Origin: Hanleya hanleyi
Taxonomy: Eukaryota > Mollusca > Polyplacophora > Lepidopleurida > Hanleyidae
Direction: 5' to 3'
NCBI GenBank assembly: GCA_036873755.1
Contig: JAVTVY010006821.1
Span: 62,001 to 126,000 of the forward strand
DNA length: 64,000 nt
The position numbers and the translations under genes are program-made. Every line of letters begins with the position of its first letter. Position 1 is the first letter of the stretch. Under the pieces are notes generated by a model. The model was given only the letters and a program-made list of their open reading frames with translations, ran no database searches and was not told where the DNA came from. Positions 26,801 through 60,090 of this stretch are shown here, in pieces.

Positions 26801-28741
26801 AGGGACTAATGGTCCTGTATTGTAGTCAGGAAAAACTTGAGCACATTTGGTACCGTTGCCAGGGTGACTGGTTGTTTATTTAACTGCTTTAGGCTTTGAG
26901 AGGAAGAGCAGAAGAAAAAAGTCCTGAAGTTATTCACCTGGTCTATATTAGTGAAGTTAAATATTTTCTGCTATTCTTATATATGTTCATATGTCATTTT
27001 CACAGAGATTTCCTGCTTTAGAGCATGAATACAAAATGGATACTATTCAGAGGTTGACTTAGAGTGTTTTCCTGAAAGGATGTCACAAATCGCTGGTTTG
27101 ATAAAAACTTTATTTAGAACACTTAACATATACAGAAGAAAATAGTTTAAGGCAGACTTATATGTTTGCCATGTTGGCAAGAAATTCAAATTTTCTAGGC
27201 TTCCATTCTTGCAGAAATTGTATACAGGGTATGTAAACTTAGGGCTACCACACAAACATCCCCTCCACCAGACCCTCTATACTATTTAGAATATAGATAC
27301 ATGCAGGACACATGCATGACCTAGGTCAATGGCTTGATTCACTTAGCTGATAGGGTCAATTGATAGGGTCAAAGTCCAAGTCATTATGTTTAGATAGCAG
27401 TAAAGCTACATGTACAAGTCTGCATACAACCATTGTAAGAATTTATAATCTTCCAAACTACGAGTGTACTCGCAGGTGGAGGTACATGTAAATAATATGA
27501 TGCCATGAGAGGATACATCCCAGCATAGATCCAGTCCATCTAACCATGAGTATTTTACATTGTATCTCAATATTCATCTTTTGTCATTTACTGCTGAAGG
27601 ATATGCTTTCTATAATCTGAAAAAAGTAAAAATATTTTACAAATATTGGTAACATGCAGAGAAGACATTATTTATCATTTCATCAGGTTGGTTTCATAAT
27701 AAATGTCTGTCCTATCAGTCACAAGTTATTTTTTTAAATATATATATGTGTACAATTACACTAATGCACTATAGATCTTTATTGAGAGAAATGTGTGGGA
27801 CTATAAATTGTATGGCTCTTCGCCATGGAACTGAACATCAAAGAGTTAGTGGAATTATTCCAACAGCCTATTTTACATTTAAATAGCCCCGTTTCAGTGC
27901 CTAAGGCTCTAGTTAACAACTACGGTTGGTGAATGGCTTGGCTCTGGGGCCTTGATCGCACACGCAGTATATAAAAAGGCCCTACTGGAGCTAGGTATAT
28001 TAAAGAGAAAGTGGAGACCACCCTGAAAGCCCAGCTGGTGAAAGTTGGTTAGTTTTACACCAAATTGTTGTACCCTCGGCTATCAGAATGAGATATTACG
28101 TGTGGCTCATGGCATCACGTCAGCATGCCATTTAACTAGAAAGACTCAAACTAGGGTTATGCAACACTTTTATTTGCCCAAACTGCACAAGGATGTGAGT
28201 TACATACATGTCAGATGGTAGGAAAACCTCCGTATTCTATAAAACCAGCACCGTTAATACCGATTCCAGCATTTGAAGAACCATTCAGTAATGTTTTGGT
28301 AGATAAAATCTGGATATAAATATCTGCTGACGATAATGCATGTGACCACAAGATATTCTGATGCAGTTCCTTGGAAAACAATAACCACATTGATAGTTGT
28401 ACATGCTTTGCTTCAGTTTTTCAATCTATATGATTCGGTCTGATCAGGGGTCAAATTTGATGTCTGGCCTTTTCCAGGAAGTCATGCACGAGTTAAGCAT
28501 AAGAAAAATAAAGTCTACAGCCTATCATCCACAGTCAGGTATCTTTACAACGATATCACCAGACTAAGAAGATCATGCTGAATGTTCTTGAGTACGCTGA
28601 CAGTTGGAACATAGGTACCGGTAAATCGTTTGTTCTGTTTGCGACAACAGACATGCCCAACGAGTCAAACGGCTTTAGTCCATTTGACATAGTCAGAGAT
28701 CCATTAATGATGGGGTACGGCGCATCACGTTGGGCACACCG
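26801..28741 (+). repeat. Tandem duplication, copy B (~1.94 kb)
   Basis: Second copy, with small indels such as an extra GATAGGGTCAATT near 27350. Its right end runs into the complete SINE at 28713, which copy A contains only as a truncated head. Confidence 0.85.
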
Positions 28742-29085
28742 GTTCTCGTCAGATCACCGAAGTTAAGCAGCGTTGAGCTCGGTCAATACTTGGATGGGTG
28801 ACCGGGTGCTGTACTGACTGGGCTGATCAGTGTCCCGAATAATAGGAACTGTGGACACTCTCGTGTTCTGGCACATGTAGGCACCGTCGTGATATGACTG
28901 AAACAAGGTTGAAAACGACGTTAAACCCTACTACTCACTCACTCACTCCATTAATGATGATAAAAGAGGTTTTATTCTCTGAGGAGAATAACGTCTTGGA
29001 CTATGTGCCTACCTTTAGAGGAAGACTCCCTACGGCATGCAAGTTCGTCAAAGAACATCTCAAAAGGTTATGAAAACCCGATTTG
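27865..29085 (+). pseudogene. Ty3/gypsy integrase remnant, copy B, split by a SINE
   Basis: Repeats the integrase blocks of copy A. The frame up to RDPLMM (28710) is cut by the 5S-SINE and resumes after it with KEVLFSEENNVLDYVPTF and GRLPTACKFVKEHLKR (about 28960-29070), the normal continuation of a gypsy integrase C-terminal part. Confidence 0.65.
28713..28946 (+). mobile_element. 5S rRNA-derived SINE, full 5S head
   Basis: Head GGTACGGCGCATCACGTTGG and CACCGGTTCTCGTCAGATCA follow the 5S rRNA sequence nearly end to end, including the internal Pol III control region, then a ~110-base body and a CTCACTCACTCAC tail. Flanked by TCCATTAATGATG at 28700-28712 and 28947-28959. Confidence 0.9.
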
Positions 29086-40184: not shown

Positions 40185-41036
40185 ATGATCTCCCTGCCAT
40201 ACAAAGTTTCCGCAGAAGTCTTTGGAGAGAAGGGGGCTGTCTTTCTACGTATTATCGATCACGGCGATGTACCCAACACGTCTCAGTCGAAGTTCATCAC
40301 ATTAACTACGAAGGCATGAGACAACCTAACATTTTACCTGCGGACCATCGACTCCTTTCTCGAACGAGGTGTGGACACACCCCAGCCTCTAAGCCTGGGC
40401 AAAGATGTATATATCAGTCATAATGTATTCAAGGGGAAATCATACGTGCACATCAGGTACTGGGATAAATCTACCACCAACGCAAGGAAGATATTTCCGA
40501 CGACTAAAGGAATTGCATTGGACGGGGTCTTATGGTCGGAGTTGAAAAAGAAAGCTCGAGAGATAAACGCTGCGCTGAAGGAGATGATAGCCGGCATTCA
40601 GGTTTGCGCATCGGGAGTCTTCGACGACGACGACATGTCATCGCCTCCACCGACTCGTACGGTTTGCTGAAGGACACAACTCCTCGAACATGCCATTAAG
40701 AAAGCGTGCATCGAAGAACTAGCCCCTATGATCTGTGAAATAAGGAGAGAACGCTGCCCCGGATGTGAGATCGACGACCCCAGCCAGGATCATCACGAGT
40801 GTATGATGAACGATCCCGATGAGATGGCGGACTTATACTTTGACGATGCTCTAGAACGTATTGATGAAAATGCGGCCATGAAGAACTTTGAATCCCTCAT
40901 CCAAAGGCAAACGGAAGTGAACGTGCACCCCCGTGTACGTGCACCTGATGAAATACCAGTGCGAAGACTGGAGGGAGACGGAACTGAAAACCGACCAATG
41001 GAAAAGGGACTTACTGAACTGTATGAAAAACGCTAA
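40185..41036 (+). pseudogene. PC4-like coactivator protein of the outer Polinton
   Basis: One reading frame from ATG 40185 to the stop at 41034-41036 is broken only by TGA codons at 40317-40319 and 40668-40670. The middle part shows SYVHIRYWDKSTTNARKIFP and TTKGIALDGVLWSELKKKA, which resembles the ssDNA-binding PC4/Sub1 fold (basic strand, KGI-L, W-L). The C-terminal part has RCPGCEIDDPSQDHHECMM, a Cys/His motif that I associate with invertebrate Polinton proteins. It likely acted on element transcription or replication; both are inferences. First gene of the plus-strand block. Confidence 0.55.
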
Positions 41037-44440: not shown

Positions 44441-47236
44441 TTAGCCATCATTTGCTTTCACTCTGATGTAGTCAGAGATCCGGATGAAGCCGTGTGCCAC
44501 AGTATTGATACCGTCATCTAGTACATACCGTTTATCGTCGAAGGCGGATAACGCTACTTTCTCAACGGTATGACTATATAACTGGTGGTCAATACTGCGA
44601 ATCTAGTTCATGGTCGTTTTTACAATTTTGTGTTGAATTAAACAGTCTTTATACATGATATGTCGAAGTTTTTTCTTTATAGCGTACTTGGCTATCCCCT
44701 TCGCCGTTTTCTTCTCTTCTCCCCCGTATAGAATGCTGTGCAACTTGGGCCTAAGGCCTACAAACTCCTCTATAGGAGTACCGCCGCATTCATCTTTCAT
44801 CTTGCCAAGTACTTTGGCATTGGTAGTGCTTTTGAGGTGGTGGTATTCCGTGTAGTTGCTGGTGTCGAACAAAACCAGATTCTGCGCCATGTCGCCGTGC
44901 AAATCTTCCGTCTCAATTTCGTAACAAACTATCAGTGTCAGAGAATAGCAGCTTCGCTTTTTGGCCATACTTTCGCTTCAATTCATTATAGTGGAAGTCG
45001 TATATAAGTAGCTTCGGGAGGTCTAGAATAGCGAAGCCGGCGTAGGTGGGTCTGTTCAAAAATAATTTAATTTTCTTTAGATTGACGCCGACTAAACCCT
45101 CGTTAAAAATTTTGAAAGTCTGAAAAGAGGGACTGGCGACCGTCCTCTAAAGTCTCCTCTAAAGAGCTCTATCCGGGTACATTTCCTAAGATTCTCCATC
45201 GTTTTCGCGAACACCGAGTTGTTCATCAGTTTAAAAAAGTCCTTCTCGAAGTCATTCTTAGCGGCCTTACGTTTGTCCGTGTTGAATGCGATGTACGGCT
45301 GCAGCCATGTAGACTGCGTGAACTCTATCCCGCGATGGATTCGAGTCAAAAGCATTCCCTGTGGCAGGTAGAACTTCAAATCGCGGTAGTGTATCACATA
45401 GTTCAATTTGTCGCGAAGGTTGGGAACGAGTTTTTCCGTGGGTTTGCCTTTAACCCTATCTCGCCTGGGCTTTTTGGGACCTGTCCAGGCCTGGGGGAGC
45501 CGACATGGCCCCCCCTAATTATTTTTCTTATCCCTTGAGCTAGGGGGCTGAAACTTACCACACTATACCCTTGGGTCAAGCTCTACCAGAAAATGTAAAA
45601 AAATCCAAGATGACCGCTTTGATGATGTCACAGTGACGTCATTTTCAAAAACGGCATTTTTGGGTCGATTTTTCGGTCGGATTTTCCGAATTTTTTATTT
45701 TTGCAATTTCTCCGCAAAAACTGCATGATAAATTAGTAAATATTAATGTGATGTGAAATAAAATAGTTTTTGCCCACTTTTCATCGCAGAAAAGCAGAAA
45801 TTTTGAAGAAATGTGACAAAAACATCACTTTTCTAGTACCCCACGTGGCCGCCATCTTGAACTTACCCATGATCCTCTGCTCAGGGGGTTATGCAAATGG
45901 GCTCAAAATGACCCCAATATGATAAACTATAAAGTCCCGAAGTTTCAGCACTCCATTTTTCGTCGTTCCGGAGATAGCGCAGAAAGTTTGGTAGGGGGGC
46001 CATAATGGCCCCCCAGGCCAGGTAGGGTTAATCTCTAGCTCTTCCTTCAATCCGAGTGAATGAGGCGAGAGCGTGTCATCCGTTACCGTCATTCGTTCGG
46101 GACAGAGAGGATAGTCGCTATGTGCCTCGTGGAGTGACGAGGGATATTGTAAGTCGACTTCGAAAATATAACCCGTTTCGGCATCATCTTCAATTTTCTC
46201 TATCTCCGTCGCGTCCAGCGACTGGATTTGTTCCTCGATCATCCACTCAAAGTCCCGTAGGGGTAAAGGCTGTGACATAGCCCACCCGTATATGTTATTG
46301 GCGTCGAGATAAGTAATCTACTTAGTGGGCGAGTTGACATTGTAATGGACCATGTTCGGGTTGTTCGCCTTATTATACTTATCAGAGATCATTGAAATAC
46401 CTCCGCGGATACCCCGTTCTATCATTAGGTGCATGTCTATGTCGCCCAGCAATTGTAGACGCACACCGGTCATTTTCAACATGGCGTCCCATGACAGACC
46501 GGGTGAGGTATAATAGTGAGCCGGGTCGAGATGACATTAGTTCATGGAAATGTTGCGAAAATTTTCGAATACATCGGCTAGTTGCAGGACATCGGATTTT
46601 AGGTAGAAGTCGTGGTAATGCCCTAGAGTTTGAATTGCAAACTCCGACCATACCGACTGCGCGTGGGGATAGTCTTGGTCGGAAATAGGCTCTTCGCGGA
46701 AATCGTTGTAAAACGCTTCTTTGGGAGGGAGTTGGCGTTCCGAAAATTTACTTTCGGTTGACATATACCCGTAGGAGTAGACTCCCTTTCTCAGCAGTTT
46801 ATGCTGTTGGTTAGGGCTTAGGAAATGTTGCCCGAGCTGGTGAAATTTTTCAACACCTTCCTTAGACATGTTGTCGACCAGAGTTTCGAGGGCGGCATTG
46901 AAAACTGTAGGGAATCGAGAAACCTTAAATTACCCAGAGAGAAGGAGATGTATTTTTGCATGTTATTCGGGATACACGTTATTTTCAGACCCTTGAATTT
47001 TCCCATGACACTACAGATGAGATGGCCGTCATAGCCCTTAGTGTTATGCAAAACGACGGGTATGAAAAACTGGCGCTTTTCTCGCTTGGTAGACCTCCTG
47101 TAAGTTGCACTGATTGTGAGCGGGGCCCCTGTATTTTCCCGTCAAGTGACAATGTTCGCGTACTCTGTCAGCGCCTAGTTCCTTGTCGCAGATATGACAA
47201 TGCGCCGCCGCTTTAAAGGAGTTTTCCTCCTCCCGG
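44441..47236 (-). pseudogene. Protein-primed DNA polymerase B of the outer Polinton, C-terminal two thirds
   Basis: Continues the gene cut at 58638. Minus-strand blocks in order: zinc-like CHICDKELGADRVREHCH (about 47280), HNTKGYDGHLI (exonuclease), YLDANNIYGWAMSQPLP (polymerase motif A region, about 46290), VIHYRDLKFYLPQGM, KDFFKLMNNSVFAKTMENLR (motif B, about 45230), SDTDS (motif C, about 44950), EEFVGLRPKLHSILYGGEEK, and a tail FDDKRYVLDDGINT with stop at 44441-44443. Frameshifts are frequent, one just after motif C, and a piggyBac-like MITE sits at 45454-46027. Replicates linear genomes from a terminal protein. Confidence 0.9.
45454..46027. mobile_element. piggyBac-like MITE in the polymerase gene
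   Basis: TTAA target copies at 45450-45453 and 46028-46031; inverted ends CCCTATCTCGCCTGG and CCAGGCCAGGTAGGG. 574 bp, non-coding. TTAA targets with CCC ends are the piggyBac signature. The polymerase coding text continues on either side. Confidence 0.85.
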
Positions 47237-47748
47237 AGTAGTATATAAAGAGTATTTGGAGGTCGATTGACCTCAGAAATTTGCATATTTTGTGGAGGAC
47301 ACGTGGAGGTCACACGCGACAGCCAATCAGAAGCGAGTATTGTGTCACATGGGGTCATGTGTGGTGGTGGATGGGTGGGTGGTGGGTTTAAGATGGCGGC
47401 TGTGGTGGATGGGTGGGTGGTGGGTTTAAGATGGCGGCTGTGGTGGATGGGTGGGTGGTGGGTTTAAGATGGCGGCTGTGGTGGATGGGTGGGTGGTGGG
47501 TTTAAGATGGCGGCTGTGGTATGTGGTGGTGGATGGGTGGGTGGTGGGTTTAAGATGGCGGCTGTGGTGGATGGGTGGGTGGTGGGTTTAAGATGGCGGC
47601 TGTGGTGGATGGGTGGGTGGTGGGTTTAAGATGGCGGCTGTGGTGGATGGGTGGGTGGTGGGTTTAAGATGGCGGCTGTGGTGGTGGATGGGTGGGTGGT
47701 GGGTTTAAGATGGCGGCTGTGAAAGATGTATTCATCCGCGGTGATGCG
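47237..47748 (+). repeat. Left inverted terminal repeat of the inner element
   Basis: 512 bp, inverse of 58142-58637 (496 bp). From the outer end inward: TATATAAAG (47243), ATTTGCAT octamer (47279-47286), CCAAT box in AGCCAATCAGAAGC (about 47320), then ~9 tandem 38-bp units each with TTTAAGATGGCGGCTGTGG, and an inner edge GAAAGATGTATTCATCCGCG. Confidence 0.9.
47361..47720 (+). repeat. 38-bp minisatellite with YY1 motif
   Basis: Units of GGTGGATGGG-TGGGTGGTGG plus GTTTAAGATGGCGGCTGT, about nine copies with few variants (GTGGTGG additions). AAGATGGCGGC is the consensus YY1 site. Present inverted at 58165-58510 and, in three units, at 52286-52378. Confidence 0.9.
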
Positions 47749-48179
47749 GTCATGTCTGGCGGTGATTCGGTCGCGGGAAAAACCTTCCGCGGAGAAAAAG
47801 TAGTCCCTAGATAAAATGGTCCGATGGGGTCGAGTGAGGTATCCAAGTGAAGCTTATGTGAAGGGGCATCTAATGGGCTGGGTGTGGGGTTGACATATCG
47901 GCCTTCTGCGCATGCGCGGTGGCCGAAGGGTATGAAAATAGCCGTTTTGGGAACAACAAGTTTAGTAATGTTTATATAGTTTATTACCCCAATGTTACAT
48001 CATACCCAGGCTGGGGGGAGCCGCCCTGGGTATGTTTAGTATGTTCACAGCAAAACAAATTGAAATATCAAACACCATGTTTTATTATTTAACACATTGT
48101 CACATTAGGTCAAGTGTTTACTGAGCTCAAGTCAGCGAGCAGCATGTAGACATAGAGTGTGGGTACAGCATGATATTCA
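47749..48179. other. No gene; 3' flank of the zinc-finger gene
   Basis: Non-coding. TTTATT at 48081-48086 gives a minus-strand AATAAA about 95 bases after the zinc-finger stop codon. Confidence 0.5.
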
Positions 48180-49100
48180 TCAGTGCACGGGTGACGCATT
48201 CAACCGATGGGGGTGATCGGTCAGCTTGGTCAGGAAAAACGTGACATTGGTTACCCTCTCTACCACCCATTGAATGTTGGGGCGTTGACGATGCGCCCAT
48301 CTCAAGGCATCCACGGTGTCCAGTATCTCCAGCATCGTCTCTAGTGACCCCCGGTTAATGATGGTGACCGGCTGGTCAAACACATGGTTGTTGGCACTGG
48401 GATAATAATACTGTAACTGGTCCGTCTTTTTGTGACGTAAGATGTACCCGAAAGCGACATTCAATGTAAAGGCCGTAGTTTGATCATTGAAGATGGCTTC
48501 CACGTAGCTGCGTAGACAGGTGCGGTTGGTCAGTGGGAAATTGTAGATATCTTGAGGGTGGAAACAGTACCGTGTCATGGACCAATGGCGCCTATCGATG
48601 TCACTGATTGGATGGTTGTCCTGTAAGAGATCGCTAGGAACATTTATGGGCTCCACCAGAAAATGTTCGATGTTGTCAGGACTCGAAACCGTAACGCTGG
48701 GGTCCGGCTGGATATTCAGGCTCTTCTCAACTGTGGGTATAGGCGGGCTCTCCTTCATCGTATCACCAGTGGCGTTCGTCTCCCCGGGCTTATCTTCACT
48801 GTATCTCACCTTCCGTGGCTCCTCTTCAGTAGGAAGTTGTCGTTCATGCTCATGGGCATGAATCAACCGTTGGTGTCGCAGCAACTGACTGCGTCGTTTG
48901 AAGAGTTGATCACAATCCTCGCATGGACGCTTGGATGGCCCATGAATTGAACGTTCGTGGCGCAGTAAAGCATCTTCCCGATTAAATGACCGTGCGCAGG
49001 TTATACAAGTATACAGTCCATCGTTGTGGGTGGAGGCCTCGTGGCGTCGTAAATTATCTAGACGAGTAAACTGCTTCTGGCAAGTTGTGCAAGTGAACAT
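48180..49100 (-). CDS. Three-finger C2H2 protein with Polinton polymerase N-terminal-like domain
   Basis: 306 residues, intact. Fingers at residues 4-25 (C4, C7, H20, H25), 32-53 and 60-81, all C-x2-C-x12-H-x4-H. A charged, Ser/Pro-rich linker follows (about 82-165). Residues ~165-306 (HWSMTRYCFHPQDIYNFPLT, FTLNVAFGYILRHKKT, YYYPSANNHVFDQPVTIINR, RPNIQWVVERVTNVTFFLTK) resemble the accessory region found upstream of the polymerase domain in some animal Polinton PolB proteins. Here it ends without polymerase. TATA box (minus CTATAAAAGGG, 49146-49156) lies ~50 bases upstream of the ATG. Probably binds DNA, perhaps the element's ends. Confidence 0.75.
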   Translation of the reverse strand: MFTCTTCQKQFTRLDNLRRHEASTHNDGLYTCITCARSFNREDALLRHERSIHGPSKRPCEDCDQLFKRRSQLLRHQRLIHAHEHERQLPTEEEPRKVRYSEDKPGETNATGDTMKESPPIPTVEKSLNIQPDPSVTVSSPDNIEHFLVEPINVPSDLLQDNHPISDIDRRHWSMTRYCFHPQDIYNFPLTNRTCLRSYVEAIFNDQTTAFTLNVAFGYILRHKKTDQLQYYYPSANNHVFDQPVTIINRGSLETMLEILDTVDALRWAHRQRPNIQWVVERVTNVTFFLTKLTDHPHRLNASPVH

Positions 49101-49145
49101 CTTGGTGGTTGATAGAGTGTCTGATGAAATGGCAAGGCCGCTTCC

Positions 49146-49156
49146 CTTTTATAGCA
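49146..49156 (-). promoter_or_regulatory. TATA box of the zinc-finger gene
   Basis: Minus-strand GCTATAAAAGGG, 46-56 bases upstream of the start codon at 49100. Confidence 0.6.
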
Positions 49157-49314
49157 CGCTAGCTGGTAATCTATTTTTAGCACACTCTACCCCAAGTCGA
49201 GGATCGAGACTGGTGTACTGGTGTACCACTGAGCCGCATTGCGCGCGTATGAAGACCCTTATACATACCCAATGCAGGCGCAGACGCGAAGTGCCCGGAC
49301 GATAGACACGGACG

Positions 49315-49420
49315 TCACCGATCCGAAAAGACACGGACTTTACCGAAAAGACACGGACTTTACCGAAAATACACGGACTTTAACGAAAAGACACGGACGT
49401 ACACGAAAAGACGCGAAGGT
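49315..49420 (+). repeat. ~20-bp tandem repeats (AAAAGACACGGACTTTACCG)
   Basis: About five imperfect units between the zinc-finger promoter and block copy 1. Function unknown. Confidence 0.75.
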
Positions 49421-50044
49421 GAACGCCATTGTGGGAAACCCCCACAGATAGGTCAGTACATGCATTTCTATGTTGTTCACGAATAATAAAAGGATTGTAT
49501 GTTTGGAGGTAGTTTTTAGTGAAAACCCGGAAGTGACGTCACAACCCACGTGACCTGCGTATATACTCCTGTAAAATAGAGCCGATTTTATTTCTTTGGA
49601 GGGGCAAGGTCAATAGGACTTGCGCTTTTTATACTACTAAACTGTGAAGTAGATTACATCTTACATAGGCCTTAAGGCCGTGATATGCATATGAAGTATT
49701 CTGGGGCATGGTCAGTACTTCCCAATTTTCCCTTCGTCTACTACTCGCCGATTTTTTATTTTTTTATTTTTTTTATTATTATTATTATTATTTATTTATT
49801 ATTTTTTATTTATTTATTTATTTTTTTTCTCCGTTTTATTGTCAAATGCAGGTATTCAAATGATTTGACAAATGATAGCGTACAAACGATGTAAACATAG
49901 GGAAAATTATTTGAGAAATTGTAGTTTGTTTCAATCAGCTGGTATGCAAAAGAATCTCATAGCGGCGTTCCAGGACAGCTTCAACACTGGACGCAAATTG
50001 TTTCCTGCAAGATAATAAAATAAAAAATAATAAGGGGAGAAAAA

Positions 50045-50117
50045 GTCTGCGCAGGTGGGACTCGAACCCAGGTGTTCTCGATCAACAGCTCAATGCGTTT
50101 CCATTGAGCCACGACCA
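50045..50117 (-). tRNA. tRNA-Asn-like pseudogene (copy 1)
   Basis: Minus strand shows an A box (TGGCTCAATGG), a CTGTTGA anticodon-loop-like stretch (GTT in anticodon position), a B box (GGTTCGAGTCC) and an oligo-T stop downstream. The acceptor arms do not pair, so it is a pseudogene or a Pol III promoter element rather than a working tRNA. Confidence 0.5.
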
Positions 50118-50288
50118 TGTTGTTGCTTTATAAAGATGTTAACTTCAACCAGAGTTGTATGGTTGGAATAATTCATTTGTTCATTTGAATTAACGTGGTA
50201 CTACCACGATAAAAAACATGCTAAAAAAATAACCAGGCCAACCCAAAGATAATATATGCCACCCTACGCTACGTAACTGTTGCTAAAA

Positions 50289-50343
50289 CCATATAAGGGG
50301 GTTCCCGGTAAATTTGAACAAATGATGACGTCATGACCGAAAT
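50289..50343 (+). promoter_or_regulatory. CArG box and CRE (copy 1)
   Basis: CCATATAAGG (50289-50298) is a perfect CC(A/T)6GG SRF site and TGACGTCA (50336-50343) is a perfect CRE, 37 bases apart. Confidence 0.5.
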
Positions 50344-50954
50344 ATCAACAACGCAGTTTCCACCGAGGCCGTGTCTTGGCCAAAACCGATAATGTCGGTG
50401 TGAATTTCAATGGATGTAGGCGAAATAAACGTAAGCTATCCTTCTATCACACACAAACTCATGTTGGCCGCTCTCAAATTTTCGTACAGGCCTTATTGCG
50501 AGAACTTGTGCGAGACGTGTGCACGAAAACTACGTGCGAAATCAGGCCTATTTTGTCATCGCATGGGCGGAAACAACTGCCGATCTAAGGAAAAATATTA
50601 CCTCAAAGGCAGCAACCGAATTAGCAATGTAAGCCTGAACAATTATATTTTCATCCCTTGAAGACTGTCGAATTATCCACACCACCCCAAATTTATAAGC
50701 CGATATTCTATTCTGTGAAAGCTGGATGTGATGAAAACGCACTGAGTCACACGTGCACTCGCAACAATTCGCAACAGTGTAATGAAATGTGTTCATTATT
50801 TAGGCGCTCATTTTCTACGACCTATACAGCCAACGTGGTTTATTAATATGCACACACATATGTTTTTCTTATAGTTCATTGGCTGAACACCCTCTGTTTT
50901 ACCACACCCACCCCACGTGGGTGTATGGGAGGGAGAAATTCATCTACCGTCACA

Positions 50955-51310
50955 CCCCAGAAACAGAAAACCGCTGGGGTGTCGACACCATGACACCAGG
51001 AAGAGCCAGGAAACATGTGTGTGTGTGCCGTTGGCCGAAATCATTAGCTTGATAGTTTAGTGTTTTCATTTCATTCATGTGGTAAACTGAAGACCGGATT
51101 TATACCGATGGAAATATCTGTGAATTTCGAAAAAATCCGTGACAAGCCAAGAAACAGAAAACCGCTGGGATGTCGACACCAAACCAGGGAGCATGTGTGT
51201 GCCGCTGACCAAAATCATTAGCTTCATAGTTTAGTGCGTTCATTTCATCCATGTGGTATACTGAACACCGGATTTACCGATGGAAATATCTGTGAATTTC
51301 GAAAAAATAT
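50955..51310 (+). repeat. ~190-bp imperfect tandem pair inside the block
   Basis: AGAAACAGAAAACCGCTGGG starts both units, followed by GTCGACACCA, AATCATTAGCTT and GGAAATATCTGTGAATTTCG. Repeated again in block copy 2. Confidence 0.75.
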
Positions 51311-51814
51311 ATATGGAATGAGATTCGTGGTGATACCCATATTTTTTTAGGATACGAATGCATCGTGATGAAGGCTTCATGGTGTGTTATACCCACCTAG
51401 GAAAAAAACAGCCCCCAGATATGCATCAAACGCCCGGGAGTATGGAATATAGGTATACATCTGGACTAAACTCTTTTATCAGGTAAGCTAGACTTTAGTA
51501 CTATACTTGCGTTGAAACCCATGCAGACAACCTATTCAAATTTCAATGCATTGGCAACATAGCGTCGCACGAAATATACGCGCCCCTGTTGACCAGGATT
51601 TTTTTATACTCCCACAACAACAGACAATTTGAAGACAATTTTCTAGCGGGGTGTTTTCTTGAACATAATTGCTGTAATATACTCTTCTTTTTGTGGACGC
51701 TAAATATAGGGGAGAAAATGGCAACATTGTGACCAAACCATAACAGTTGACAGCTGTAAAAATAGATACCGTGGCATAAAATGAGAGAGAACATTTCAAT
51801 CTGCCAATTTTCGA

Positions 51815-51925
51815 GATGAAAATTTTTTCTTGACGAAATAGAAATGAACGCGAATCTATATTCTACAAAACATTTTTTCTTGACGAAATAGAAATGAACG
51901 CGAATCTATATTCTACAAAACACTA
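51815..51925 (+). repeat. 51-bp tandem pair
   Basis: TTTTTTCTTGACGAAATAGA through CTATATTCTACAAAACA occurs twice in succession; also in block copy 2 at about 57710-57817. Confidence 0.85.
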
Positions 51926-52250
51926 GAAAATATTAGCGTAGGTGAATTTTTTTAGACTCATTTTAGACTGTTTTGTGCTTTCATCGAAAGTGAAAACACA
52001 TCTCGAAAAGTGTGTAGCAGTGTCGATATAAATCTTCAACCTAGATGTAAAAATAGATACCGTGGCATAAATTAGAGAGAGCATTTCAGTACACCTCAAA
52101 AAAAATGAAACCTGGACGGGTATCCTTCATCTCGAGGGGTCGCAAGTTCGATTCTTGCTTTCATTATGTGAGTATGTGTTGGACATGTGATCTTTAAATT
52201 TTATTATCACCAGACTAGCTTGAATGTTTTATGAACGCTAAATGTAGGAT

Positions 52251-52378
52251 CGCATCACCGCGGATGAATACATCTTTCACAGCCGCCATCTTAAACCCAC
52301 CACCCACCCATCCACCACCACAGCCGCCATCTTAAACCCACCACCCACCCATCCACCACAGCCGCCATCTTAAACCCA
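52251..52378 (-). promoter_or_regulatory. Internal truncated terminal repeat; likely capsid gene promoter
   Basis: Contains the inner ~128 bp of the right terminal repeat: CGCATCACCGCGGATG then three minisatellite units. The last YY1 site (GCCGCCATCTT, 52361-52371) is 11 bases before the capsid ATG at 52383. No TATA box is seen. Confidence 0.6.
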
Positions 52379-52382
52379 AAAC

Positions 52383-53688
52383 ATGTCCTTAATCCACGCC
52401 GAGTCCTGCCCCTCCACCAACAGTGAATTTGATTTGTGGACCGTGCCGCCCACACAGACCAGTGTCGAACAAGGATTATGGGTGGAGCATCTCCCGCTCT
52501 CCAGCATCAACGAAACCGGGCCCATCGAGTTCACCATCAGTAATGCGGATACGGCCTATGTGGATTTAGCCCATACCTACTTGTATGTGAAAGCCAAGGT
52601 GGTCAATGGAGCTGGCACCAGAATCGCTGACCAAGCAACGGTGGGCCCGACGAATCTCTGGCTGCACTCGATGTTTCAGCAGGTGGATATTTTTCTCAGC
52701 GACAAACTCATCAGTGACTCCACCAACACGTACCCCTATCGAGCCTACATCGAGACACTGTTGTCGTATGGCCGAAAGGCTAAAAAATCTCAGCTGACAA
52801 CCGCTTTATTCTACAAGGACACGCCCGAGCACATGGACACGGCGGACAATGGGGGATATAACAAACGGAAGGCTTTCACTGCGAACAGTGCCTCGGTGGA
52901 TATGATGGGTCGACTGCATGCAGACATGTTCATGCAAGACCGGTACCTCTTGAACAAGATCCCCATCAAAATCCGACTGATACGGGCGCCTCCGACCTTC
53001 GCCTTGATGGCCACTAACGTAGAGGGGCATGCAGCGGACTATAAGATTGTCATCCAAGACTCAGTATGTCCGAAAAGTGAAACCGAATCCAGCCGTTCAA
53101 TTGGGACACATGAAAGCCTTGGAAACAAAACCAGCCCAGTACCCTATCCGACGTGTGCAAACCAAAGTGTTCTCTGTGCCTGCTGGAAATATGGGCGCCA
53201 ACAAAGAAAACCTGTTCCTGGGGGAACTACCCAAGCGATTGATCCTGGCCTGTGTGGAAAATACCAGTTTCAGCGGAGCCTACCCAGAGAATCCGTTTGA
53301 CTTTCAACATTTCGGCATCAATTTTGTGGCCCTGCATGTGGATGGACAACAGGTGCCAGCCACGGCCTTAACACCGAACTTTGGGCGGAGGAATTTCATT
53401 CGAGCCTATCAGAGCCTGTTTACAGCCACCGGTCAAATCAACCAGGACGAAGGGAATATGATCAGTCGGGAGGACTACGCGAACGGATACACGTTGTTCT
53501 GTTTCGATCTGACCCCCACCTTAGAGAACGACCATCAGCTGGCCCTGGCCAAGCAAGGCAACTTACGGTTGGAAATCCACTTTGCACGAGCCCTGGCGAC
53601 AACCGTCAATGTGATCTGCTACGCCGAGTTTGACAACATCATTCAAGTGGACAAGGCGCGCAACGTCCTGTGTGACTTCTCCACCTAA
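52383..53688 (+). pseudogene. Major capsid protein of the inner element (one frameshift)
   Basis: Reads from ATG 52383 to about 53060 in one frame and from about 53060 to the stop TAA at 53686-53688 in the next, a single one-base shift; total size about 435 residues. N-terminal EFDLWTVPPTQTSVEQGLWV, PIEFTISNADTAYVDLAHTY and the central DRYLLNKIPIKIRLIRAPPT belong to the Polinton/adintovirus major capsid family (double jelly-roll, often listed as F54H12.2-like). Later blocks include RRVQTKVFSVPAGNMGANKE and a C-terminal DNIIQVDKARNVL. No other break is seen, so the shift could also be a sequencing error. Confidence 0.85.
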
Positions 53689-53689
53689 A

Positions 53690-54163
53690 ATGGATACAGA
53701 CCAGATAACCACCGTGCTGGAGAATGACCCAGAGACACGTAGGGTCTTTCAAGGGGTGTTCGCCCGAGATGTGTTTCCATTAGACCGTATGTATCCTGCT
53801 GCTTACGTTCTCAACACGGACCCGATGGATCGACCTGGTGAACACTGGGTGGCCGTGTACTTGACAGAACAGCAGGGCGAATACTTTGACCCGTACGGTC
53901 TGCCACCCCTCCATCCCGATTTAACAGACTTCATGGATCAAGGCACAGAGACGTGGTGTTGGAACAGTCAAACGTTGCAAAGCCTGACCAGTGGCGTGTG
54001 CGGACAATATTGCTTGTTTTACCTGTACCATCGATGCCGGGGAAGACCCTTATCTACCATCGTACAGATGTTTGACGAGTACCCCCAGGCCGAGGACCGC
54101 GATGTACTCGTCTATGACTGGGCCGCCCATCATTTCAATGTACAAGCCCCGTTCTGGGCTTAA
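53690..54163 (+). CDS. Adenain-like cysteine protease
   Basis: 157 residues, intact. Catalytic set by position: H52 in GEHWVAVYLTEQ, D67 in EYFDPYGLPP, Q94 in WCWNSQTLQ and C104 in SGVCGQYCLFYL, in the H-D-Q-C order of the adenovirus protease family. C-terminal RCRGRPLSTIVQMFDEYPQA is also family-like. Starts one base after the capsid stop codon (TAAAATG), so both are probably made from one transcript. Matures virion proteins in the assembling capsid. The last codons lie in the first unit of the hairpin array that follows. Confidence 0.9.
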   Translation: MDTDQITTVLENDPETRRVFQGVFARDVFPLDRMYPAAYVLNTDPMDRPGEHWVAVYLTEQQGEYFDPYGLPPLHPDLTDFMDQGTETWCWNSQTLQSLTSGVCGQYCLFYLYHRCRGRPLSTIVQMFDEYPQAEDRDVLVYDWAAHHFNVQAPFWA

Positions 54164-54312
54164 GTTAATGACAAGCCCCTTGTTCTGGGCTTAAGTTAAT
54201 GACAAGCCCCTTGTTCTGGGCTTAAGTTTACAAGCCCCTTGTTCTGGGCTTCAATGTACAAGCCCCTTGTTCTGGGCTTCAGTTAATTACAAGCCCCTTG
54301 TTCTGGGCTTGA
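54147..54312 (+). repeat. Hairpin array after the protease gene
   Basis: Six tandem units of ~28-32 bases, each a stem AAGCCC/GGGCTT with loop CTTGTTCT (first unit variant), separated by AAGTTAATGAC-like spacers. The first unit overlaps the protease stop codon. Followed by AATAAA at about 54351. Confidence 0.85.
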
Positions 54313-54348
54313 GTTTTCACGTGGTTGTTCTCACGTTGTTGTTGTTCA

Positions 54349-54362
54349 ATGAATAAAAAAAA
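54349..54362 (+). terminator. Polyadenylation signal for the capsid-protease transcript
   Basis: AATGAATAAAAAAAAAATG contains AATAAA ~185 bases after the protease stop; TGTGTGTTTTATT downstream is GU-rich. Confidence 0.6.
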
Positions 54363-54471
54363 AATGAGATCTCACCAAAAAACCCTGTCTTGTGTGTTTT
54401 ATTCCTAATGCATCAATGCCCAATGTGGAGATTCAGTCAAACTGAAATCAGTGGTGTAGGATGGGGCCAAA

Positions 54472-54842
54472 ATGTAACCCATCAAGTTTAGAATGCAAGA
54501 GCACTATAGTAAAAAATAGAGAGCCAATGAAATCAGCCTACAGACCAAGTACGTGTTTTTGGTCTAGGTTTGGAGCGGGCATTTCATTGAGGTACGTGTA
54601 TACGGTGAGTGAAAAGACTCGTCCAACACGTATAGATTATGTTGATGACTATAAGTTCTAGGTAACCCATCAAGGTTAGAATGCAAGAGCACTATAGTAA
54701 AAATAGAGAGCCAATGAAATCAGCCTACAGACCAAGTACGTGTTTTTGGTCTAGGTTTGGAGCGGGCATTTCATTAAGGTACGTGTATACGGTGAGTGAA
54801 GAGACTCGCCCAACACGTCTAGATTATGACTATAAGTTCTAT
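54472..54842 (+). repeat. ~185-bp tandem pair
   Basis: GTAACCCATCAAGTTTAGAATG to ATGACTATAAGTTCTA occurs at 54475-54660 and 54662-54842. Contains GGTACGTGTATACGGTGAGT. Non-coding; a further partial start (GGTAACCCATCCATG) appears at 54910. Confidence 0.8.
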
Positions 54843-55004
54843 GAGCATAATGCATGAAAGTGGCTTTGAACACCGTATTAGCCAATCAGTGACCTAGAAT
54901 GGAGCCAAAGGTAACCCATCCATGTCCAGAAAAACATTACCCGGGTGTACAAGAACCCAGATGTAGGCGCGGACGTCAGCGAAAGCACACCGTGAGTACC
55001 CCAA

Positions 55005-55090
55005 TTCGATTGGCTGATTGTTCGACCGCTGATTGGTTCTTTTTCTCGACCGCTGATTGGCTCTTTTTTCTCGACCGCTGATTGGTCCAA
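55005..55090 (-). repeat. Tandem CCAAT-box repeats
   Basis: Four GATTGG cores, three in the unit GACCGCTGATTGG plus a T/C tract. On minus these are CCAATCAGCGGTC boxes, typical NF-Y sites. Confidence 0.65.
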
Positions 55091-55199
55091 ATGGACCTGC
55101 CCATCTTTCCCAGGTTCATTTACAATCCCCTTTTTGTGCTCAAGCTCTGACTATAGCGATGCCGCAACATTGTCTCATTGGACATTGGACCGTTTGACC

Positions 55200-55320
55200 T
55201 GGAGCTGACCCTTTGACCTTTTGACCCGCGTCCGCGCGGGCACTGCCGGGGATGACGCGTGATGACGCGCGCGCGCGCGCTGCGTGCTGGGGCGGCCAGG
55301 CCAGTGGAAAACACCCCGGC
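55200..55320. other. GC-rich stretch with (GC)n run
   Basis: GCGCGCGCGCGCGC at about 55266-55279 in an otherwise AT-rich element. No gene. Confidence 0.6.
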
Positions 55321-55937
55321 GGTTGAACATTGGAACTCTTGTGGGTTTGGAGGATGAACATACGGACGTCTAAGGGGAAAAATTGGAACTCTTCTATGTT
55401 TGGAGGTAGTTTTTAGTGAAAACCCGGAAGTGACGTACACAACCCACGTGACCTGCGTATATACTCCTGTAAAATAGAGCCGATTTTATTTCTTTGGAGG
55501 GGCAAGGTCAATAGGACTTGCGCTTTTTATACTACTAAACTGTGAAGTAGATTACATCTTACATAGGCCTTAAGGCCGTGATATGCATATGAAGTATTCT
55601 GGGGCATGGTCAGTACTTCCCAATTTTCCCTTCGTCTACTACTCGCCGATTTTTTATTTTTTTATTTTTTTTATTATTATTATTATTTATTTATTATTTT
55701 TTTTATTTATTTATTTTTTTTCTCCGTTTTATTGTCAAATGCAGGTATTCAAATGATTTGACAAATGATAGCGTACAAACGATGTAAACATAGGGAAAAT
55801 TATTTGAGAAATTGTAGTTTGTTTCAATCAGCTGGTATGCAAAAGAATCTCATAGCGGCGTTCCAGGACAGCTTCAACACTGGACGCAAATTGTTTCCTG
55901 CAAGATAATAAAATAAAAAATAATAAGGGGAGAAAAA

Positions 55938-56012
55938 AGTCTGCGCAGGTGGGACTCGAACCCAGGTGTTCTCGATCAACAGCTCAATGCGTTTCCATTG
56001 AGCCACGACCAT
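55938..56012 (-). tRNA. tRNA-Asn-like pseudogene (copy 2)
   Basis: Identical A box, B box and anticodon-like loop to copy 1; one extra base in the downstream A/T tract. Confidence 0.5.
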
Positions 56013-56182
56013 GTTGTTGCTTTATAAAGATGTTAACTTCAACCAGAGTTGTATGGTTGGAATAATTCATTTGTTCATTTGAATTAACGTGGTACTACCA
56101 CGATAAAAAACATGCTAAAAAAATAACCAGGCCAACCCAAAGATAATATATGCCACCCTACGCTACGTAACTGTTGCTAAAA

Positions 56183-56227
56183 CCATATAAGGGGGTTCCC
56201 GGTAAATTTGAACAAATGATGACGTCA
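56183..56227 (+). promoter_or_regulatory. CArG box and CRE (copy 2)
   Basis: CCATATAAGG (56183-56192) and TGACGTCA (56220-56227), conserved from copy 1. Confidence 0.5.
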
Positions 56228-58141
56228 TGACCGAAATATCAACAACGCAGTTTCCACCGAGGCCGTGTCTTGGCCAAAACCGATAATGTCGGTGTGAATT
56301 TCAATGGATGTAGGCGAAATAAACGTAAGCTATCCTTCTATCACACACAAACTCATGTTGGCCGCTCTCAAATTTTCGTACAGGCCTTATTGCGAGAACT
56401 TGTGCGAGACGTGTGCACGAAAACTACGTGCGAAATCAGGCCTATTTTCTCATCGCATGGGCGGAAACAACTGCCGATCTAAGGAAAAATATTACCTCAA
56501 AGGCAGCAACCGAATTAGCAATGTAAGCCTGAACAATTATATTTTCATCCCTTGAAGACTGTCGAATTATCCACACCACCCCAAATTTATAAGCCGATAT
56601 TCTATTCTGTGAAAGCTGGATGTGATGAAAACGCACTGAGTCACACGTGCACTCGCAACAATTCGCAACAGTGTAATGAAATGTGTTCATTATTTAGGCG
56701 CTCATTTTCTACGACCTATACAGCCAACGTGGTTTATTAATATGCACACACATATGTTTTTCTTATAGTTCATTGGCTGAACACCCTCTGTTTTACCACA
56801 CCCACCCCACGTGGGTGTATGGGAGGGAGAAATTCATCTACCGTCACACCCCAGAAACAGAAAACCGCTGGGGTGTCGACACCATGACACCAGGAAGAGC
56901 CAGGAAACATGTGTGTGTGTGCCGTTGGCCGAAATCATTAGCTTGATAGTTTAGTGTTTTCATTTCATTCATGTGGTAAACTGAAGACCGGATTTATACC
57001 GATGGAAATATCTGTGAATTTCGAAAAAATCCGTGACAAGCCAAGAAACAGAAAACCGCTGGGATGTCGACACCAAACCAGGGAGCATGTGTGTGCCGCT
57101 GACCAAAATCATTAGCTTCATAGTTTAGTGCGTTCATTTCATCCATGTGGTATACTGAACACCGGATTTACCGATGGAAATATCTGTGAATTTCGAAAAA
57201 ATATATATGGAATGAGATTCGTGGTGATACCCATATTTTTTTAGGATACGAATGCATCGTGATGAAGGCTTCATGGTGTGTTATACCCACCTAGGAAAAA
57301 AACAGCCCCCATATATGCATCAAACGCCCGGGAGTATGGAATATAGGTATACATCTGGACTAAACTCTTTTATCAGGTAAGCTAGACTTTAGTACTATAC
57401 TTGCGTTGAAACCCATGCAGACAACCTATTCAAATTTCAATGCATTGGCAACATAGCGTCGCACGAAATATACGCGCCCCTGTTGACCAGGATTTTTTTA
57501 TACTCCCACAACAACAGACAATTTGAAGACAATTTTCTAGCGGGGTGTTTTCTTGAACATAATTGCTGTAATATACTCTTCTTTTTGTGGACGCTAAATA
57601 TAGGGGAGAAAATGGCAACATTGTGACCAAACCATAACAGTTGACAGCTGTAAAAATAGATACCGTGGCATAAAATGAGAGAGAACATTTCAATCTGCCA
57701 ATTTTCGAGATGAAAATTTTTTCTTGACGAAATAGAAATGAACGCGAATCTATATTCTACAAAACATTTTTTCTTGACGAAATAGAAATGAACGCGAATC
57801 TATATTCTACAAAACACTAGAAAATATTAGCGTAGGTGAATTTTTTTAGACTCATTTTAGACTGTTTTGTGCTTTCATCGAAAGTGAAAACACATCTCGA
57901 AAAGTGTGTAGCAGTGTCGATATAAATCTTCAACCTAGATGTAAAAATAGATACCGTGGCATAAATTAGAGAGCATTTCAGTACACCTCAAAAAAATGAA
58001 ACCTGGACGGGTATCCTTCATCTCGAGGGGTCGGAAGTTCGATTCTTGCTTTCATTATGTGAGTATGTGTTGGACATGTGATCTTTAAATTTTATTATCA
58101 CCAGACTAGCTTGAATGTTTTATGAACGCTAAATGTAGGAT

Positions 58142-58637
58142 CGCATCACCGCGGATGAATACATCTTTCACAGCCGCCATCTTAAACCCACCACCCACCC
58201 ATCCACCACCACAGCCGCCATCTTAAACCCACCACCCACCCATCCACCACAGCCGCCATCTTAAACCCACCACCCACCCATCCACCACAGCCGCCATCTT
58301 AAACCCACCACCCACCCATCCACCACAGCCGCCATCTTAAACCCACCACCCACCCATCCACCGCCATCTTAAACCCACCACCCACCCATCCACCACAGCC
58401 GCCATCTTAAACCCACCACCCACCCATCCACCACAGCCGCCATCTTAAACCCACCACCCACCCATCCACCACAGCCGCCATCTTAAACCCACCACCCACC
58501 CATCCACCACCACACATGACCCCATGTGACACAATACTCGCTTCTGATTGGCTGTCGCGTGTGACCTCCACGTGTCCTCCACAAAATATGCAAATTTCTG
58601 AGGTCAATCGACCTCCAAATACTCTTTATATACTACT
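58142..58637 (-). repeat. Right inverted terminal repeat of the inner element
   Basis: Inverse of 47237-47748, with about nine YY1-type minisatellite units (one shortened, near 58355), then CCAAT box, octamer, TATA-like sequence and terminus TATACTACT followed by the target duplication TCCCGG. Confidence 0.9.
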
Positions 58638-60090
58638 TCCCGGGTTATCTGCATAGGTTTGACACACTCTAATATATCGCAGATTCGTTTATCTTCTTCT
58701 ACGAGTTTTTTTCAGGAAAGTTTCTACGACATCGGAACCCCTATATAGCACAGCGGGCTTACTGTGTTCGGGCATTGTACTCACTACGGTATAACAAAAC
58801 CCGAACGGTTCGTGACGCTCGTATTTCGTGGTAGCCCCGGATTCGGAGTGAATTTACACGTAAAACATTCGAAATCGGCGTAAATGATGAACGGAACGCG
58901 TAACTGTTTCTTGATATTTTTGAATTCCAACCACTGCTCTTCGGGGTTTCCGGCAGTCTGATTCGCTGCGGGCCGTGTCGAGAACAGTGAGGAATGTGAT
59001 CGTTTAGCAACTGTCGAGTAGACAACGCGTGTAAACAATAATTGCAGTAGAATTGAGCGCCATTATGATTTGTGCGATCCCCTAACAATCGGCTCATGTT
59101 CTTGATCAAGCAGAAATGTCACTTCTCATCTTTAGATATGAGTAAAAGATCGACGTGTCTATCAGACTTTTGTTCGCTTATATGCAGGGGAAAAACCCCT
59201 TCGTCGTAACCGAACACGCTCACGGAAATATCGTTACGAGCTTCGAACTTCGATATTTGAGATGGAGGGATAGAAAAATCGATTCCATCGATGTTTAACT
59301 CGTTGAAGTACGGTTTATAATGTCGAATGCGATTCGGGTCACGCTTCGCGGGGTATAAGGCCGCTAGAATTGACCAGAGAAAGCAAAACTGATCTGTGTT
59401 CTGCGGGTTGACAATCGCCTTCTTTGTACTCAGATGAGGTGGCGTGGGGATATAGCTACTACCTTGAAAGGGCACATATTGAGCGATGTGTACCTGAAGG
59501 TGAATAATTTCGTCCAAGACCCATGCGCTTCCGTCTCGCTGATACTCCTGGAAGCTAGAATGTATTTTCTGGAAGGACTTGGCGAGCTGCTGTTTCGTGC
59601 TAATGAAATTAAGACTTCTGAACAGGGGTTCTGAGTAAATGGCCTCACCATCATTATTCGTTCAAGCGAGGCGGAGTTGTAGGGAAACGTACCACTTGAT
59701 CCCGCGTTGATCGTTTAACGTTGTCGTCAGCATGCCGTCAGCACGAACTGCGTTTTCGTTGTTATTAAAAAAATGCAGAATATCTGAATTGGTCGTTCTA
59801 GTAGGTGGAATAGTGTGGGTGTGCAGAGTTCCGTTCAGCGCGGACGATGACGATTTCACCCCTCCCGACTGTTTACCATGGCAACTGTTGCAATGCTGCC
59901 GGTGGCTGGTGTAAAATCGCTCGGGTAGTGGTCGATGACAGGAAGAACACTCACGACCTCGGCTATAACACTCCTCGCAGAACTGTTTTCCGGGCACTTG
60001 AATCTTCCACACCAGTTACATTTGGCCAGTCGAGCGGGTTGACCTGGAGATATAATTATGAATGTTACATATTTTATAATCGTCACGTTA
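58638..60090 (-). pseudogene. DNA polymerase B of the outer Polinton, N-terminal third
   Basis: Minus-strand blocks: CNWCGRFKCPE and CEECYSRGRECSSCHRPLPE (Cys-rich), ERFYTSHRQHCNSCH, GWVLDEIIHLQ-like text near 59520, YVPFQGSSYIPTPP, FCFLWSILAALYPAKRDPNR, YFNELNIDGIDFSIPPSQIS, CNYCLHALSTRQLLNDHIPH (zinc-binding) and PFIIYADFECFT, the ExoI motif of the 3'-5' exonuclease. Just after this the inner element starts. At least two frame changes. The join with the C-terminal part across the insertion is direct, with TCCCGG doubled. Confidence 0.85.

Follow-up and report, generated by a model that had tools for sequence, protein, structure and literature searches.

A Polinton copy with a duplicated right arm and its apparently polymerase-less parent family in the mollusc Hanleya hanleyi

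We analyzed a window of 64,000 nucleotides from Hanleya hanleyi (Mollusca, Polyplacophora; assembly GCA_036873755.1, contig JAVTVY010006821.1, positions 62,001 to 126,000 of the forward strand, here C6622:62001-126000), which holds a Polinton-like element at positions 47237-58637. The assembly comprises 2.48 Gb in 52,793 contigs. The element is a real insertion, enclosed by near-identical inverted repeats of about 510 bp and flanked on both sides by a perfect 6-bp target duplication (TCCCGG); it starts with AGTAGTATA and finishes with the complement of AGTAGTATA. Its terminal repeats show no mismatches over their outer 277 bp and differ mainly in the length of an internal array. The only gene-like open reading frames (ORFs) encode a C2H2 zinc-finger protein, a major capsid protein and an adenain-like protease (Table 1). 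A first-pass annotation had reported intact terminal repeats enclosing these three genes alone, and both this gene content and its exact coordinates are borne out.

Searches with the proteins of the Polinton-type contig L001 found no integrase or ATPase within the element, and the rest of it held no further gene. The Polinton polymerase (PolB) query matched the element only by residues 1-225, within the zinc-finger ORF. This ORF has no exonuclease or polymerase domain and corresponds to a polymerase gene's N-terminal portion; its protein shares about 53% identity with PolB residues 8-164 (PolB pieces L025 and L015 from the same genome). The first-pass annotation had overlooked this correspondence, as well as the right-terminal-repeat fragment in which the first block copy stops. 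Among viral proteins, the one closest in fold to the zinc-finger protein was a C2H2 protein from Drosophila-associated adintovirus 2, at a weak TM of 0.28. The protease matches that of L001 at 43%, with a Pfam Peptidase_C5 score under the cut-off, and full-length relatives of the capsid protein are mostly about 435 amino acids (aa) long. A search for capsid relatives among viral contigs found none. Among genome contigs, capsid relatives turned up in three bacterial metagenome-assembled genome (MAG) contigs, which we take for animal contamination; L001, one of the three, was used as a yardstick for gene order.

Table 1. Features of the window element, with positions counted from the first nucleotide of the window.
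Feature	Position	Strand	Remarks
Left target-site duplication TCCCGG	47231..47236	.	Flanking sequence
Left terminal inverted repeat	47237..47751	+	Begins AGTAGTATA; contains array of 38-bp units
Zinc-finger ORF, 306 aa	48180..49100	-	Three C2H2 zinc fingers and N-terminal accessory domain of Polinton PolB (Pfam, motifs)
Extra right-arm copy	49495..52378	+	Non-coding AT-rich block and 131-bp right-terminal-repeat fragment (52248-52378)
Junction J1	49497..49498	.	Zinc-finger region to right-arm block; blunt
Junction J2	52378..52379	.	Terminal-repeat array to 4 bp upstream of capsid ATG; 1-bp microhomology
Major capsid protein gene	52383..53688	+	Of native length, with a single private frameshift near 53.06 kb
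Adenain-like cysteine protease, 157 aa	53690..54163	+	Reading frame open
Repeat-rich non-coding tail, protease to block	54164..55391	+	
Native AT-rich block	55392..58138	+	Position of polymerase in sister family H
Right terminal inverted repeat	58139..58637	-	Matches left repeat
Right target-site duplication	58638..58643	.	Flanking sequence, TCCCGG

Between the zinc-finger gene and the capsid gene lies a second copy of the element's own right arm. The stretch 49495-52378 is a direct repeat of 55392-58269, with 99.5% identity (3 substitutions in 2735 bp plus short indels), and it stops within the right-terminal-repeat array, 4 bp before the capsid ATG. Junction J1 has a single match in the 2.48 Gb genome (25 bases, at most one mismatch). 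Junction J2 is lacking at 35 of the 39 other capsid loci, the remaining four being unread upstream: 33 of the other matches in the capsid list start exactly at J2, and six start further in, two of which were read and have p135 upstream. That these six might be 5'-truncated at a shared point was rejected for the two that were read, which proved to be full length and cut by the search; four are unread. The two block copies in the window are 0.11% apart, compared with 0.29 and 0.44% from contig C20262, 0.66 and 0.91% from C7023, and 0.61 and 0.65% from C19. Since they are closer to each other than to any of these copies, the duplication appears to be recent and private to this element. The alternative of a degenerate polymerase gene in the AT-rich block was not supported (best E 0.48).

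A terminal-repeat search of the genome returned 72 matches from the best 40 of 2397 candidates; 20 stretches and then smaller sets were fetched, and two copies, C20262 (15,784 bp) and C7023 (14,142 bp), were read end to end, in pieces. Each genome list holds the best ~40 loci, and the copy counts that follow are lower bounds. These relatives form a family, here called S, and the sequence that they have in common with the window element is 94-99.7% identical. In both fully read copies the order is terminal repeat, zinc-finger gene, three small ORFs, integrase, ATPase, p126, p273, minor capsid, p135, capsid, protease, tail, block and repeat, such that 6.4 kb from integrase to p135, with the small genes, stand at the place of the window's extra right arm. 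The C7023 integrase combines an rve domain with a chromodomain, and the S copies have the packaging ATPase that the window element lacks. No polymerase was found in C20262 or C7023, both of which match the PolB pieces L025 and L015 by residues 8-164 only, and the ends read of five further S copies held no PolB beyond N-terminal residues. Among these, the zinc-finger region is full length in C11137, C37210 and C21946, internally deleted in C34811 and mostly deleted in C13194, and the right ends of C11137 and C37210 run through protease, tail, block and repeat, with polymerase absent. Both repeats and a 6-bp duplication are present in C7023 (GAGCAA), C20262 (TATGTG), C37210 (CACCAG) and C11137 (ACGGTG); AGT-type ends together with such duplications were found in these four S copies and in the window element.

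The modules of S are repeated across the genome, at no fewer than 40 loci in each case: the capsid-protease module and that of the small ORFs and integrase at 95-100% identity, the protease-tail-block module at 94-100% (many gapped in the block), and the zinc-finger region at 98-100%. Twelve contigs, C20262 included, are common to the zinc-finger and integrase lists, and the two modules adjoin in all of them. Eleven contigs beyond C20262 and the window carry modules on either side of the 6.4-kb region; nine of these have the spacing of C20262 to within 30 bp, and C15210 and C15725 deviate by -77 and -335. The window deviates by -3488, a spacing found in none of the 12 other two-sided contigs. 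In 9 of the 11, what comes after the protease is tail and block and no polymerase (seven by list and two read; C13194 and C52458 fall outside). A Pfam scan of nine S proteins found no helicase. The three small ORFs and p273 had no Pfam match, and none of them is polymerase- or helicase-like; the 108-aa small ORF had no match among the loci tested. S looks like a multicopy family that bears capsid and integrase genes and has no polymerase.

The same genome contains a sister family, H, with the same genes as S plus a polymerase, and with similar terminal repeats. The PolB of C37834 is present at 43 or more loci (96-100% identity, some with stop codons), and the capsid-protease-PolB stretch at 40 or more (96-100%), 38 of the 40 listed extending well into PolB. 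The H copy C10760, whose contig stops short of the element's left end, follows the gene order of S and then has PolB on the opposite strand after the protease. Its DNA identity to S is 75% in the integrase, 66% in the ATPase, 71% in p126, 68-76% in parts of p273, 81% in the minor capsid, 78.5% in p135 and 68% in the capsid gene, and two of the three small ORFs, as well as p273, have counterparts in H. The H repeats are 90-94% like those of the window element. None of the 40 H contigs occurs among the 127 contigs of the S lists, and only one of 43 PolB contigs (C8411) is also in these lists, the two loci being ~35 kb apart. One further copy, C26397 (L044-L046), keeps PolB and integrase, but p135, capsid, protease and a portion of the minor capsid gene are gone; it has no visible 6-bp duplication, and its losses indicate that H has deletions of its own.

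In C15983:25778-41286 (L014-L015), an inverted S right arm is joined to an H arm with capsid end, protease and PolB, and the whole lies inside a CTCGAG duplication, which shows that S and H have recombined. H-type sequence also makes up the middle of the repeat in C38574, an S copy, and in C26864. Within single copies the two ends hardly differ (0/125 mismatches in the window element and in C7023, 1/150 in C20262, 2/125 in C26864, 1/125 in C15983), and the outermost 40 bp differ between copies, a pattern expected of ends that are copied from each other during replication. Linear protein-primed viruses of the adenovirus type give rise to defective genomes with duplicated arms. C26864 and C24212 are similar to these in having the right arm inverted at both ends, in C26864 inside a GACCTC duplication; C24212 has six tip mismatches and no visible target duplication, and its palindrome would be expected of a fold-back replication product. 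The window element differs from such defective genomes in that its extra arm is a direct repeat, and all of these copies, unlike defective viral genomes, are integrated in a genome. The arm-rearranged and chimeric copies are compatible with template switching among genomes that replicate in one pool. The centre of the C24212 palindrome (L012 8030-8140) lies in the capsid gene and is formed by a 23-bp inverted repeat whose loop measures 11 nt.

Between S copies, most genes have dN/dS values well below 1: 0.14-0.28 for integrase, 0.20-0.35 for ATPase, 0.06-0.35 for p126, 0.28-0.35 for p273, 0.18-0.34 for the minor capsid and, where defined, 0.17-0.34 for p135. The capsid gene gives 0.32-0.47 in comparisons with C7023 and 0-0.88 on few changes in other pairs; the protease gives 0-0.49, with 1.09 on few changes in two pairs. 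The three small ORFs have too few changes between two copies for dN/dS. Against H, the values for the genes compared are 0.09 (integrase), 0.16 (ATPase), 0.20 (p126), 0.32 (minor capsid), 0.20 (p135), 0.21 (capsid), 0.10 (protease) and 0.11 (N-domain, against H PolB), and are imprecise because several dS values exceed 1. The window copy itself is uninformative on selection: compared with C20262, it has 0 nonsynonymous and 3 synonymous changes in the protease gene, 1 and 1 in the capsid gene over 192 codons, and 3 and 1 in the zinc-finger gene. Five of six full-length copies, the window's included, keep an open zinc-finger ORF, whose dN/dS relative to diverged relatives in C51261 and C17135 is 0.24-0.41; together with the 0.11 of the N-domain, this suggests that the protein was historically constrained. 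These two contigs (L026 and L024, respectively) carry several such diverged gene copies, at 76-80% DNA identity, with S-type blocks, and these add to the number of N-domain genes. Indels in the integrase, ATPase, p126, minor capsid and capsid genes are private to one copy with few exceptions. Shared programmed frameshifts in integrase and ATPase were considered and rejected, as each indel is private to one of the copies compared.

We consider it probable that the window element is one rearranged descendant of the polymerase-less family S, and that S is most likely replicated by the H polymerase. A second copy of the element's own right arm would have taken the place of the 6.4 kb that run from the small ORFs to p135, most likely through template switching during extrachromosomal replication, and the rearranged product would then have integrated. 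The H polymerase could act on S through the similar terminal repeats, with S supplying its own integrase and virion genes; the zinc-finger/N-domain protein that S also keeps may serve to recognise its ends or to prime them. We infer the dependence of S on H polymerase in trans, the formation of S particles and this role of the zinc-finger protein. The stronger proposal that S is a true satellite Polintovirus, with its own integrase, motor, capsid and protease, using H polymerase in trans through shared terminal repeats, with the N-domain protein at its ends, and with template switching in mixed replication yielding arm-duplicated and S/H chimeric genomes such as the window element, is a tentative one that we regard as nearly evenly balanced.

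Several observations weigh against this interpretation. The zinc-finger gene, across five S copies, has a pN/pS of 1.44 (15 nonsynonymous and 3 synonymous changes) and no selection signal, and the fold lists for the zinc-finger/N-domain protein contained no phi29 or adenovirus terminal protein. S copies are mosaic (between C7023 and C20262, dS is 0.005 in the zinc-finger gene and 0.19 in the minor capsid gene), and the constraint seen on S genes may therefore stem in part from a polymerase-bearing background before recombination. An S copy with a polymerase could sit below the best ~40 scored loci. Any single rearranged copy, moreover, could be a post-integration rearrangement or a misassembly, and the latter could apply to the window rearrangement as well.

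S copies could instead be ordinary non-autonomous transposons amplified by H enzymes, with the virion genes as passengers and no satellite virus, an explanation that we find conceivable and on balance doubtful. The mostly private indels in integrase, ATPase, p126, minor capsid and capsid, the neutral-looking zinc-finger polymorphism within S and the values of 0.88 (capsid) and 1.09 (protease) in some close pairs, on few changes, would all accord with it. However, dN/dS in divergent pairs is 0.06-0.47 across integrase, ATPase, p126, p273, minor capsid, p135 and capsid, which is unlike long-term passengers. Replication of S without H, by a host polymerase, the polymerase of another Polinton family or an unrecognised gene of its own, appears unlikely. 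Room for such a gene is offered by the three small ORFs and p273, which lack Pfam matches, and by the unmatched 108-aa ORF, but two of the small ORFs and p273 have H counterparts, none of these ORFs is polymerase- or helicase-like by Pfam, the repeats resemble those of H, and an S/H chimera exists.

We think it still less probable that the duplicated right arm is a misjoin and the true locus an ordinary S copy. J2 does fall within a tandem array, the two blocks are almost the same (3 substitutions over 2735 bp, besides short indels), and there are further near-identical duplications in the window; against an assembly artefact stand J1, a clean join outside any array, and C26864 and C15983, which show other arm rearrangements inside target duplications. 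Finally, the proposal of the first-pass annotation that the three-gene element is itself an evolved satellite unit is highly improbable, and refuted as far as the assembled copies go: for all its intact repeats, target duplication and open protease and zinc-finger ORFs, its capsid gene is frameshifted, its right-arm duplication is recent and private (0.11% as against 0.29-0.91%), J1 occurs once in the genome, J2 is lacking wherever the upstream sequence of other capsid loci was read (35 of 39, with four unread), and no other two-sided contig has its spacing.

The relatives of the window element carry integrase, ATPase and minor capsid genes, and with J1 unique, the three-gene element is best seen as a one-off derivative and not a family. 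The alternative that the annotation had itself named, a deleted copy of a full Polinton, largely holds: integrase, ATPase and minor capsid do occupy the place of the 2.9-kb block in full copies, but polymerase is absent from the two that were read. Its satellite logic fails for the window copy and carries over to S, which is multicopy, apparently polymerase-less and equipped with capsid and integrase. Most S genes have dN/dS values well below 1, and the zinc-finger gene gives no selection signal within S.

S resembles animal Polintons/Mavericks in its AGT-type ends, 6-bp duplications, chromodomain integrase, packaging ATPase, both capsid proteins, protease and length of 14-16 kb; this end motif and such 6-bp duplications are described for vertebrate Mavericks in PMC8097293. 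It differs from them in that the protein-primed polymerase is missing from the copies read, the N-terminal domain being kept as a separate zinc-finger gene. The window element shares major capsid and protease with Polintons, and departs from them in having neither integrase nor packaging ATPase. Adintoviruses, relatives of Polintons that have been put forward as viruses of animals, have a gene kit similar to that of S, but PolB is present in Drosophila adintovirus 1, and adintovirus 2 has nearly the same gene set (PMC8363768), whereas S encodes none. The Tlr elements of Tetrahymena, in the account given in PMC4028283, are like S in having integrase, ATPase and capsid proteins without PolB; in that account a superfamily 1 helicase replaces PolB and a protease is lacking, whereas S has a protease and, among nine proteins, no Pfam helicase. 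The same source (Krupovic and colleagues) reports nine capsid-less Polintons that also lack protease and ATPase, and S is their opposite, with virion genes kept and polymerase missing. Like virophages and satellite viruses, S has virion genes of its own and replication that is apparently supplied by another element; its suspected helper would be a sister element in the same genome, where that of virophages is a giant virus.

A phrase search across the open literature (5.39 million papers), with subscription papers and preprints outside its reach, returned no Polintons lacking PolB and no satellite Polintons, and among the matches listed in broader searches no title or abstract start describes a polymerase-less Polinton family. 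If true, an animal Polinton family with capsid and integrase genes and no polymerase of its own would amount to a satellite-helper pair within one genome. Whether animal Polintons act as parasitisable viruses would become testable, since sister elements with common ends would allow assays of particle formation, trans-replication and interference. The arm-duplicated copies would be fossil evidence of linear, viral-type Polinton replication in an animal.

The window element lies within the ruins of another, outer Polinton. Searches support a polymerase segment of that outer element at 46261-46794 alone, and ORFs flanking the insertion on both sides suggest that the insertion lies inside the outer polymerase gene; a terminal repeat of the outer element was looked for and not found. 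An ORF at 40323-40667 in the outer Polinton region matches PC4 (PF02229), a transcription-coactivator-like protein. Within the inserted element, AAGATGGCGGC occurs in nearly every 38-bp unit of the arrays at 47390-47717, 52282-52371 and 58173-58484. We take AAGATGGCGGC to be the consensus of the host factor YY1, and the arrays are possibly candidate promoter arrays. Outside the element, direct duplications of 92-99.7% identity (9934-12140/15084-17290, 24865-26784/26799-28742 and 17288-18099/20189-21013) reflect either recent duplication events or haplotypes that were assembled twice. A 5S rRNA-like sequence (28713-28817; Rfam, 56.8 bits) is located at the end of a tandem duplication.

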